From Nitrososphaerota archaeon (lineage in GTDB: Archaea > Thermoproteota > Nitrososphaeria > Nitrososphaerales > Nitrosopumilaceae): DNA of 34,209 nucleotides. Below, piece after piece: positions 6,245 through 9,950 of the stretch (positions are counted from its first letter, which is position 1; every line of letters begins with the position of its first letter). The stretch is from NCBI GenBank assembly GCA_018668425.1, contig JABJDB010000057.1, positions 1 to 34,209 on the forward strand, given 5' to 3'. A program made the translations under genes and the position numbers. The notes under the pieces are model-generated. The model saw nothing but the letters and a program-made list of their open reading frames with translations, was not told the origin of the DNA and searched no databases.

Positions 6245-7357
6245 TTATGTTGTTAATTTTTTGACAAGACTTAGAAAATCAATTTCAACCATTGGGGAAA
6301 TATTCATGATTTCTAAATTCTCTGAAACATGTTCGTGTGATTTTTGTCCAACTAAGGGGGCTAAAACACCAGGAGATGAACGGATAAATTGTAAAGCACG
6401 TAAAGAGGTCTTTAGGTCATTAAATTCAGGCATTACACCTGGTTGTAACAATCTACCCTGCATGAAAGGAACGCTAGTAAAAACTCCAATTCCCAAAGTT
6501 ACAGCAGACTCTAAAATAGAAACGGGTTTTTCATTGACTGATTGATTTTTTGAAAGTAATGCTTGATCATAATTCATGTTGTATGGTAATTGAATAAATC
6601 GAAAGCCATGATTTTCTCCACCAACTTTTTTGGCAAGATTAACAGTATCTTCAAGAGACAAATATTGTGGGTTGTCTTTTGATACTCTGAAACATTCCCA
6701 TGTAGCCATTCCATAAAATTTGATTTTACCTTCTTTTCGTTTTTGTTCATATAACTCAAAAACAGATTCGAGATTTTTCATAAATTGTTCTTTAGAAACA
6801 TCTTTGATTTGACCTTCCACGGCATTATGCAAATACATTAAATCAATACATTCCAAATCTAAATTTTTTAAACTACGATCTAATTGATCTGAAAGATAAG
6901 GAACAGTCATACAATGATATCCAGATGTTACATCGCCTTCTTTGACAACTCCTTTTTCAGAATATTCTTGTTTCACATATTCCCAAAATCCCAATTGGAC
7001 ATCAGCATCATTTGTAACATAGCCATTTTTACTACTAATGAAAATTTGATCACGAGATATTTTTTTATCAGAAATTAATTCAGAAATGGCTTTTCCTACT
7101 GAACGTTCTGCTTTTTGAGATCTATAATTAATTGCAGTATCAATAACGTTTACACCAGAAAGAATGGATTGTTTTACAGCACTAGTAACTAATTCATCTG
7201 TTTTAGAATCAGCATCCCCAAGATAAGTTCCAATACCAACATTAGACAAAAAGAGATTCTCAAATTCGTTGAAATTTGTTTTAAGAATTGTAGAATTATC
7301 TACAAATTTTTTTGTCCCATCTAAAGTAGCATGTCCTGAAATCATAAAACTAGCCAT
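6245..7357 (-). CDS. aldo/keto reductase
   Basis: NAD(P)H-dependent carbonyl reductase of the AKR superfamily, 370 aa, cytoplasmic. The catalytic tetrad is visible in order: Asp73 and Tyr78 in VIDTAINYRSQ, Lys110 in FISSKNGYV and His177 in LMYLHNA. A TIM-barrel length is present, with a longer N-terminus and an insert after Lys110 (about 120-155). The C-terminal GVLAPLVGQKSHEHVSENL is the NADP-binding segment typical of the family. The substrate cannot be told from sequence. It lies 18 bp downstream of the prenyltransferase gene, so the two are probably co-transcribed. Confidence 0.88.
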   Translation of the reverse strand: MASFMISGHATLDGTKKFVDNSTILKTNFNEFENLFLSNVGIGTYLGDADSKTDELVTSAVKQSILSGVNVIDTAINYRSQKAERSVGKAISELISDKKISRDQIFISSKNGYVTNDADVQLGFWEYVKQEYSEKGVVKEGDVTSGYHCMTVPYLSDQLDRSLKNLDLECIDLMYLHNAVEGQIKDVSKEQFMKNLESVFELYEQKRKEGKIKFYGMATWECFRVSKDNPQYLSLEDTVNLAKKVGGENHGFRFIQLPYNMNYDQALLSKNQSVNEKPVSILESAVTLGIGVFTSVPFMQGRLLQPGVMPEFNDLKTSLRALQFIRSSPGVLAPLVGQKSHEHVSENLEIMNISPMVEIDFLSLVKKLTT

Positions 7358-7375: not shown

Positions 7376-8266
7376 TTAGAGTGTTAAAGGAATCAAGAAA
7401 CTAGCCACAAATAAGACACCTGTAATTCTACTAAACATCAATGTAGAAGACATGAATGGGACTAGATCATCAACAGAATCAAAATTTCGTTTTAAACCCA
7501 ATCCAGATTTTATCATTAATGGAATACTAAACAAACTAATCAATGAAAAAATAGGAAATAATTCAAAATACACCCCAACTAATATGCTAACGTATGATAT
7601 TATAGGAAAAATCCAAAATGCGTTTGCTGCATTTTTCTTTCCAATTACAATTACTAAGGTTTTTCGTCCTTTTGATTTATCTGCATCATGATCAGGAAAT
7701 GACGCGATAAACAAAACTAACGATGATAGGGAACCTACTATTATTCCAGCTAAAATAGATTCAAAAGTTATTTGGCCTGATTGAATAAATAAAGTTCCAA
7801 TAACAATCATAGAGCCTTTTACTGCAACAAAAAATTCACCTAACCCTGAATCGACAATTTTTGTAGAGTAAAAATAGATAGATAGTATTGCAAAGCCCAA
7901 AATTATCGCAATAATAATTCCATCAGTAAAAACAAAATATCCACCAACAATAGTTCCAAGAATTAAAAATGCAATTCCTGCACGATAGACAGTTGAAGGT
8001 TTGAGTAAACCTTCAGGTAAAACACCTGTGCCCCCACTCATCTTTGTTCTTTTAGTTTTAGTGTCAATTCCACGTTTAAAATCCCAAAAATCATTTAGTA
8101 AATCAACACTAGCATGTAATGCCATAACTCCAGCAAATGTCAAAACTGCATCAAAAATATCAATAGAAGAGTTTTGCCACCAGTTTAAGGATAATGCAAC
8201 TGAAACTGCAATTACAGAAGCTAGTAAAAATCGAACACGAATTACCCTAAACCAAACAGATAACAT
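7376..8266 (-). CDS. menA: UbiA-family prenyltransferase, probable menaquinone-biosynthesis MenA
   Basis: Integral membrane prenyltransferase of 296 aa with about eight hydrophobic segments. The first Asp-rich motif is NDFWDFKRGID (about 58-68), followed by MSGGTGVLPEGLL; the second is FPDHDADKSKGRKTL (about 190-204). These bind prenyl diphosphate through magnesium. The NDFWDxxxGxDT form and the GGTG loop resemble 1,4-dihydroxy-2-naphthoate polyprenyltransferases, which fits menaquinone synthesis in Thaumarchaeota; another UbiA role (lipid or haem) cannot be excluded. The ATG at 8266 is preferred over the TTG one codon earlier. Co-directional with the aldo/keto reductase (18-bp gap). Confidence 0.82.
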   Translation of the reverse strand: MLSVWFRVIRVRFLLASVIAVSVALSLNWWQNSSIDIFDAVLTFAGVMALHASVDLLNDFWDFKRGIDTKTKRTKMSGGTGVLPEGLLKPSTVYRAGIAFLILGTIVGGYFVFTDGIIIAIILGFAILSIYFYSTKIVDSGLGEFFVAVKGSMIVIGTLFIQSGQITFESILAGIIVGSLSSLVLFIASFPDHDADKSKGRKTLVIVIGKKNAANAFWIFPIISYVSILVGVYFELFPIFSLISLFSIPLMIKSGLGLKRNFDSVDDLVPFMSSTLMFSRITGVLFVASFLIPLTL

Positions 8267-8323
8267 CAAAAATCATACAAATTTTTCAATATAATATTCA
8301 TGAGTTTTAGATTCAAAGAATTT

Positions 8324-8331: not shown

Positions 8332-8352
8332 ATATGAGGATTAATCACGCCT

Positions 8353-8559
8353 ATGATAATTGGAAAAATATCAAAAAATGAAAAAAAAGTGAAATTTACA
8401 GAGAAAATAATCTGCACAAATTGCAGTAAACAAGTTCCAGGGGGATTACAAACAGGGGAATCATATTATCAAACAGAGCAATTCAAAAAAGAATTAGAGA
8501 ATTTTAAAAAATCATATCTTTGTGGTATTTGTAGAGATAAAAAAAGACAAGAAAACTAG
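8353..8559 (+). CDS. small two-CxxC protein, 68 aa
   Basis: Charged protein of 68 aa with C21-x2-C24 (IICTNCSKQV) and C57-x2-C60 (YLCGICRDKK), separated by a helical Glu/Lys segment. This is a standard four-Cys zinc-ribbon layout with a long spacer. It has no other domain and is not recognised. ATG start with a TATA-like element 22 bp upstream. Its stop overlaps the stop of the truncated membrane-protein gene by 4 bp (CTAG). Confidence 0.65.
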   Translation: MIIGKISKNEKKVKFTEKIICTNCSKQVPGGLQTGESYYQTEQFKKELENFKKSYLCGICRDKKRQEN

Positions 8560-8800
8560 ATTTCTTCATCCTCTTCCCAGTCTTCTTCTAAAGTAACTTT
8601 TGATTTTCTCAAAAACATTACAACCACTACAACTACCATCAATACACCTCCAATTACAACATAGATTATCCATTCAGGTAATTCCAAATCAATTGCATCA
8701 AATGATCTTTCAGGAGCATCAACATTTACAGTAAAACTATTTTTGCCTTCAGAATATCCTTCAGCTGTAGCTATAATATCAAAGGATACATCAGGTCCAA
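8556..8800 (-). pseudogene. C-terminal fragment of an extracellular-domain membrane protein (5' end missing)
   Basis: The minus-strand frame gives a convincing C-terminus: a beta-rich segment (PDVSFDIIATAEGY, KNSFTVNVDAPE), a membrane helix (PEWIIYVVIGGVLMVVVVVV), basic FLRKSK and an acidic tail EEDWEEDEEI. This is the usual end of an archaeal surface protein with an outside domain and one anchor. Upstream of about base 8800 the frame stays open only because it lies antisense to the regulator gene, and no signal peptide or plausible start is present. I infer that the 5' part has been lost at a junction near 8794-8800. The ATG at 8834 would give a 92-aa product, but its first residues are antisense to the HTH helix of the neighbour. 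Confidence 0.6.
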
Positions 8801-9534
8801 TTACAGCAAGTGCACTAGCTAAAGAACTAGACATGGACAGAGCAAGAACATACAGAACAGTAGAAAAACTAGTTAGTAGAAATATTTTATCAACTACTTT
8901 GTCTAGTCCAAAATTGTGTATTGCAGCAGATCCTCATGATGCATTAAAAATTGCCCTAGGTAAAAAAGAAGATGAAGTACATAAAATCAAAAAATCAGGA
9001 GAAGCAATTATTGAAAAAATCAATAACGAAATTACTACAAATCAAATTAATTCGGTTCCAACATTCAGAGTAGTTCAAGGACGTCAAAATATCTATGCAG
9101 ATATTGCACAAATGATTGAAACTACTAAAGATGAAATCTACATTGTAACAACATTAGATGATGTCTCAAGAATGTATCACAGTACAATTCCTGAAAAAAT
9201 TACAATATGTGAAAAAAATGGAGGGACAGTTAGATTACTAGTAGATATGAATGACACAAAATTAGCTCCATTTGTAAAACGATTCAATGCAACTGAAACC
9301 AAAATAGGAAAACTACCATCAAAAGGTAGACTCATTGTTCAAAAAAGTAAAAAAATGATAATGTCAGATTCTGCAGCATCATTTCAACATTCAAGTTCTG
9401 ATTCAGATTATTCGCTATGTACAAATTCAATGGAGATGGTGGATAATATTTTTACATTATGTTCATTTCTTTGGGAGAGATCAAGTCCACTCAAAACAAT
9501 TGATGTCAAAAATTTTGTTAGACAATCAAGATAA
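8743..9534 (+). pseudogene. TrmB-like transcriptional regulator, apparently lacking its N-terminus
   Basis: From about base 8794 the frame reads as a TrmB-type winged helix (GPITASALAKELDMDRARTY, then RTVEKLVSRNIL), a coiled segment (KKEDEVHKIKKSGEAIIEKI) and a phospholipase-D-like C-terminal ligand domain with DEIYIVTTLDD and a KKMIMSDSAAS segment. TrmB proteins normally have 20-35 residues before the GPxTAxxLA helix, a first helix with a YEIxxYxxLL pattern. Here that part is missing; the frame upstream is antisense to a membrane-protein gene, and the only upstream candidate start is a TTG at 8743. Either the gene was cut by a deletion, or it starts at an internal codon such as ATG 8833 and is non-functional. 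The body is otherwise intact to residue 263. Confidence 0.65.
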
Positions 9535-9536
9535 AA

Positions 9537-9950
9537 CTAAACAAGGGATTCATCACTAACATCAATAGGTTTTCTACCCATAAATCCAACATCTTTTTCG
9601 TGCCAAAATTTGATTTCTGTCTCACCATATTTCCAACATAACCAAACTTCCTCATCAAATCTTTTTGAAGGAAAATCAAGTAATCCCTGCTCAATACTTT
9701 TTACAACAACGCCAGTACTTTCAAGAAGTTCTACAGATTCATAGAATTTAGTTACTGCAGAGTTTAGATTTTGTTTAAGGGTAACATATTGTTCAAAAGA
9801 ATTTGTAGTAGACAAACTTAGTTGTAATTCCTGCTCTAATTTGTTGACTTCATTTTTTTTAGATAAGGAATATTCAAATTTTTTTATTACATCAGGCAAA
9901 GCATCATTTGCCTCAGTTGTCGTAAAAAATGAGAACATGTACATGGGCAA
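9537..9950 (-). CDS. DUF2203 family protein
   Basis: Soluble protein of 137 aa matching DUF2203: an N-terminal EANDALPDVIKKFEYSL helix, a coiled-coil central region (about 25-75), then GVVVKSIEQGLLDFPSKRF and the family hallmark VWLCWKYGE...FWHEKDVGFMGRKPI. The function is unknown. The start is ATG at 9950, though a later Met (residue 3 or 5) is possible. Its stop lies 2 bp from the stop of the TrmB-like gene, again a tight convergent pair. Confidence 0.82.
   Translation of the reverse strand: MPMYMFSFFTTTEANDALPDVIKKFEYSLSKKNEVNKLEQELQLSLSTTNSFEQYVTLKQNLNSAVTKFYESVELLESTGVVVKSIEQGLLDFPSKRFDEEVWLCWKYGETEIKFWHEKDVGFMGRKPIDVSDESLV

Follow-up and report, generated by a model that had tools for sequence, protein, structure and literature searches.

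A probable deletion scar of a type IV pilus locus in a Nitrosopumilaceae archaeon, at a site of repeated pilus loss among its relatives

The window analysed here, one complete contig (C33) of 34,209 bases from genome G000 of a marine ammonia-oxidizing archaeon (an assembly of 1.27 Mb in 113 contigs, 86.7% complete), very probably carries the scar of a deletion that removed 11.3-13.3 kb of a pilus locus, plausibly by joining at a short repeat, leaving two stubs that would now drift. Comparison with related genomes indicates that everything between about codon 829 of a surface-protein gene and codon 37 of a regulator gene is gone. The same locus has been lost repeatedly in related species at this one fixed site, with different break points.

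The junction and its two stubs

The features that bear on this reading are listed below, in coordinates of the window.

7376-8269, minus strand: UbiA-family prenyltransferase of the left flank (PF01040, 91.2 bits), which adjoins the pilus site genus-wide
8350-8558, plus strand: small cysteine-rich protein of the left flank, 69 aa with two CxxC pairs
8556-8792, minus strand: 3' stub of the surface protein of the pilus locus, the last 78 of ~907 aa
8790-8799, no strand: probable deletion junction with AGGTCCA, placed by base-level comparison with 14-15 intact loci
8797-9534, plus strand: remnant of a TrmB-like regulator that keeps 245 of 282 aa at the C-terminal end, the first 36 residues being gone
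8833-8835, plus strand: in-frame ATG, a possible start of the regulator stub (I13M; Ile in intact orthologues)
9537-9950, minus strand: DUF2203 gene of the right flank (PF09969, 126.8 bits), conserved beside the pilus site

The two stubs, both without their 5' ends, meet at 8790-8799. On the minus strand, 78 codons ending ...VVIGGVLMVVVVVVMFLRKSKVTLEEDWEEDEEI cover the end of a beta domain, a membrane helix and an acidic tail, with 64-81% identity to the C-termini of full-length congeneric proteins. These orthologues, ~905-916 aa long, extend further upstream and share a conserved 'SSDGSAIVSLTAFEGP' upstream of where the stub begins, which bears out the initial view of this frame as a surface-protein C-terminus that has lost its 5' end. 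The mechanically called minus-strand reading frame runs on to 8834; beyond 8792, however, it has left the surface gene, and all that lies upstream of 'GPDVSF' is the regulator read antisense.

On the plus strand, 245 codons without a stop correspond, at 80-89% identity, to residues 37-281 in an orthologue of 282 aa. All intact orthologues have 36 more residues upstream, with a conserved '...ELEEILDLDDLEAKVYLNLLRAG', and none begins at the window's position; a regulator that genuinely starts there is thereby ruled out. The TrmB HTH profile (PF01978) is matched by a full-length orthologue with 50.7 bits over positions 1-67 and by the window copy with 24.2 bits over positions 20-67, under the cut-off of 25.6, so that the window copy falls short of a complete winged helix, in keeping with the preliminary description, which had placed the cut within that domain. 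The match to the sensor profile PF11495 also lies under its cut-off (18.3 against 22.2 bits). The ATG at 8833 arose in the window's lineage, through an Ile to Met change in the HTH.

In a base-level comparison, relatives have GGNCC in the surface gene where the window is broken, and some of them AGGTCC; their regulator likewise has GGNCC, in several cases AGGTCCAAT, and the window has ATCAGGTCCAAT. With AGGTCC or GGNCC at the corresponding position of both parental genes in relatives, the earlier suggestion of short homology is plausible: AGGTCC(A) may have served as the joining microhomology, a claim confined to the window, its length of 5-7 bp being an estimate from relatives whose nearest intact copies are 15-25% diverged. 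An automated tie test over all scars returned 0-10 bp according to the reference used, a mixed and inconsistent outcome on which the idea of microhomology at all scar junctions was dropped.

Both flanks of the junction are in register with the intact loci of relatives. The UbiA gene is present in 81 of 95 congeneric genomes and the DUF2203 gene in 80 of 95; the small cysteine-rich gene, which has no Pfam match, is kept between UbiA and the pilus site in relatives, and in the window it now precedes the regulator stub, both being on the plus strand. Elsewhere in the genus the interval between UbiA and DUF2203 may hold unrelated extra genes: some 25.9 kb of them in G083 (L113), a cation-efflux gene in G015 (L097), an O-methyltransferase and a CxxCxxCC protein in G022 (L091) and G104 (L084), and others in G071 (L063). 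The site looks generally changeable. The DUF2203 gene of G080 (L119, 16868-17250) has an apparent frameshift, lying in two overlapping pieces in different frames.

The intact locus in related genomes

We looked for the two halves, the pilus ATPase and the two flanking genes first in 60 relatives and then in the full set of 94 congeners. The surface gene and the regulator (~282 aa) are both full length on one contig in 14 congeners, where they bound the locus on either side and face outward, the locus between them being intact or nearly so, and it is against these 14 that 11.3-13.3 kb are missing from the window. From the ~907-aa surface protein inward, the minus-strand set of the locus has a pilin, a ~590-aa protein, two small proteins (~227 and ~176 aa) and a TackOD1 protein; the plus-strand set begins with an ATPase, followed by a pair of T2SSF platform genes and then by the TrmB-like regulator. 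The block thus includes further surface-type proteins besides the ~907-aa one. The ATPase is T2SSE/VirB11/FlaI-like (PF00437, 141.6 bits; nearest solved chains 2OAP and FlaI), and the platform, T2SSF/TadC/FlaJ-like, consists of two adjacent PF00482 proteins (53.9 and 63.0 bits). The pilin has a class III signal peptide (TIGR02537, 31.5 bits, cut-off 20) and reaches only 21.2 bits in PF07790, below the cut-off of 25.2. Given an ATPase, a two-gene platform, a pilin and a surface protein in one block, the missing block is, by its predicted products, an archaeal type IV pilus locus. An archaellum was considered and is ruled out: the FlaI equivalog model, with a cut-off of 550, gives 412.3 bits, and among the neighbours no model of a further archaellum subunit exceeds its cut-off.

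In the preliminary description a deletion took the 5' ends of regulator and surface gene alike, and this stands; both stubs are homologous to the outer ends of one locus. It had also taken the two for adjacent divergent genes that shared a promoter, and that part fails. The full-length genes of relatives are not neighbours: they lie 11.3-13.3 kb apart in intact loci, with the pilus locus between them.

In Nitrosarchaeum records the core gene order is the same, and in one of them (L153) DUF2203 also follows the block; by this common order the pilus locus is older than the genus. In the single-contig genome G061 (L114, 11700-13312) the pilus ATPase lies in two overlapping frames, possibly an early step of decay or a sequencing error.

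Could the island reside elsewhere in the genome? No pilus ATPase orthologue was found in the window or in the rest of G000 (86.7% complete), the sole T2SSE match being a weak hit to a 617-aa frame of C92, and a search of G000 for the platform protein found none. The 13 kb of island DNA matched in G000 only the window's own stub and one weak stretch of 69 bp. On these searches relocation within the assembled part of the genome was rejected. Nor was a PF01478 prepilin peptidase found in G000, a genome that is 86.7% complete and without the pilus locus. Since G000 is incomplete, the absence of island genes would by itself be weak support for a real deletion. The register of the flanks, the scars in other assemblies and the loss of constraint in the stubs weigh more.

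Scars in other genomes

About 14 further genomes carry scars of a comparable kind whose endpoints differ (G033, G093, G074, G020, G109, G117, G009, G103, G081, G079, G013, G107 and G064, with a weak one in G016), among them a single-contig genome of 1,713,078 bp (G064). The scar of G093 retains pieces of the surface gene, the platform and TrmB2; G093, G064 and G009 each have more than one internal deletion, and the regulator remnants of G020, G074 and G081 carry stops or frameshifts. In many others the site is empty and clean of remnants, and for these we infer loss. On a tree of three genes (UbiA, the gene at 6245-7357 and DUF2203; 79 rows, some forks weak), parsimony requires at least 13 changes between intact and lost states within the genus. 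Parsimony changes do not tell gain from loss; in the scarred genomes it is the remnants that show loss. Breakpoints differ even between sister rows (the two versions in G033, G081 and G117, G093 and G109). We conclude that the pilus locus has been lost repeatedly in related species at one fixed site, by way of different break points.

Some breakpoints do fall close together. Those in the surface gene of G000 (window 8792), G074, G109 and G064 (L071, L088 and L076) lie within ~25 nt of one another with different partners, reflecting either a hotspot or shared history. Placed on a single reference, the regulator breakpoints of G074 and G020 fall within 6 nt of each other, though the tree separates these genomes, and the two scars may stem from a shared event.

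Two assemblies hold the site twice. G033 has two versions (L053 on C61, L054 on C79) with flanks 90-94% identical and different deletions, both scarred: in one the surface gene is joined to the last ~53 aa of the regulator, in the other to the region just before a second TrmB gene. The two differently deleted versions show that this assembly mixes two strains or species. G090 has an empty site (L094, C67) and a nearly full-length surface gene (L095, C46) on separate contigs with flanks 87% identical, and thus mixes two species of differing pilus status.

Constraint, rival explanations and known pilus loci

To gauge constraint we counted changes in the window at residues invariant in intact copies, and compared them by Fisher test with the intact copies pooled. 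The surface stub has changed at 5 of 41 such residues, against 7/620 in intact copies (p=0.0004), and the winged-helix stub at 4 of 38, against 5/575 (p=0.001); the count for the neighbouring UbiA gene is unremarkable. The sensor part of the regulator (stub codons 47-239) has changed at 1 of 122 invariant columns, against a background of 21/1851, where the rate pooled from the surface and winged-helix stubs predicts ~14 (binomial p=6e-6), and it differs from the surface stub taken alone (p=0.004); the sensor-part comparison is post hoc and small, with ten changes in all. Taken as a group, scars also have more changes of this kind than intact copies do (Mann-Whitney p=3e-5); among the copies counted, 18 were intact or lay at a contig end, and the list compared contained one surplus zero, with no effect on the conclusion. 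Both the surface stub and its winged-helix counterpart are therefore under relaxed constraint, and the sensor part is without decay. The latter pattern would be produced either if the regulator was cut after the surface gene had died or if the sensor half is still used.

These observations are most readily accommodated by a deletion of ~11.3-13.3 kb, by joining at AGGTCC(A), in which the cell would have lost the type IV pilus encoded by the deleted block. Because the two border genes point outward, a deletion of what lay between them spares just their 3' ends, and the surface and winged-helix stubs would now drift. Misassembly, raised in the preliminary description, now seems very unlikely; an assembler would have bridged the edges of a variable island in an organism that keeps the intact locus. 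In its favour, the assembly has 113 contigs and 86.7% completeness, and the site is evidently troublesome for assemblers, with two alleles each in G033 and G090 and with contigs that end inside the surface or regulator gene in G028 (L057), G004 (L058), G010 (L060), G085 (L125) and G067 (L126), where the contig ends suggest strain variation. However, the two edges brought together belong to one locus and are the right ones, correctly oriented, with flanks in register; the other contigs of G000 hold no island gene; and comparable scars are found in better assemblies, including that of G064. The stubs are moreover altered at residues invariant in live copies, and relaxed constraint of this kind disfavours an assembler's join of live genes.

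A single deletion scar is less comfortable with the intact state of the sensor part, since 1 change in 122 is unexpected for a dead gene as old as the surface stub. It is possible, if on balance improbable, that loss was stepwise, the pilus and the surface gene dying before a second deletion cut the regulator, in which case the present junction would date from the final event in a series. G093, G064 and G009, each with two or more internal deletions, give this course a precedent, and the surface stub has indeed changed faster than the sensor part. One clean junction nevertheless suffices for the window, and change has sped up in the HTH stub as well (4/38), which fits a simultaneous loss of function in both truncated parts. 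A third account, which we consider doubtful, is that the truncated regulator may still be made and used, selection keeping the sensor half without a complete DNA-binding domain. It would explain 245 codons free of stops and a sensor part that evolves at the background rate, and the in-frame ATG at 8833, specific to this lineage, together with an upstream gene on the same strand that could read through into the stub, would offer means of expression. The test behind it is post hoc and involves ten changes in all, though, the remnants of G020, G074 and G081 carry stops or frameshifts, and a recent second cut accounts for the same data. Still more speculative is the idea of a by-product regulator without a complete DNA-binding domain, started at the ATG at 8833 or at a TTG (8743) through read-through out of the small gene before it and selected for its sensor half, which might bind a ligand or a paralogous TrmB partner, combined with a preferred break site in the surface gene (four genomes, ~25 nt). 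Over all of these we favour the deletion scar.

Pilus genes are patchy among ammonia-oxidizing archaea (AOA). N. maritimus SCM1 lacks secretion ATPases for reasons that a 2016 census (Makarova et al. 2016, PMC4858521) describes as obscure, leaving the absence in the model strain unexplained; adhesion genes are irregularly distributed (PMC12448741); and an ancestral reconstruction recognises four pilus types in AOA, gained and sometimes lost (PMC7554672). A search of the open-licence literature on pilus gene loss and islands in these archaea found no account of the site or of serial scars. Scars with varied endpoints show repeated loss at a fixed site, in some lineages recent enough for the pieces to be legible. 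They allow losses of a surface appendage to be counted and dated in abundant marine microbes, and let one ask which conditions, such as planktonic life or virus pressure, favour pilus loss.

The missing block shares with published AOA pilus loci (PMC4858521, PMC7554672) a VirB11/FlaI-like ATPase, a TadC/FlaJ-like platform, a pilin and a large protein of S-layer or adhesin type; thaumarchaeal pilus loci have been described with S-layer or adhesin extras (PMC4858521), and their platform is given as one or two genes. Our assignment is to the archaeal type IV pilus in general, and the locus may be of any of the four published AOA types. As for the regulator, full-length orthologues of the TrmB family (PF01978) carry a winged helix, of which the window copy, without its first 36 aa, has only the remainder. 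In microhomology-associated gene-cluster deletion, a large block is lost between short identical sequences and a fused remnant is left. The window resembles such an event, with the difference that its repeat of 5-7 bp is estimated from relatives and not from the parent. Unlike in published accounts of AOA pili, loss is visible here as scars, at one fixed site and with endpoints that vary by genome. The scar fits a known kind of event, and where pilus loss in AOA had already been inferred, what it adds is a physical trace at one site.
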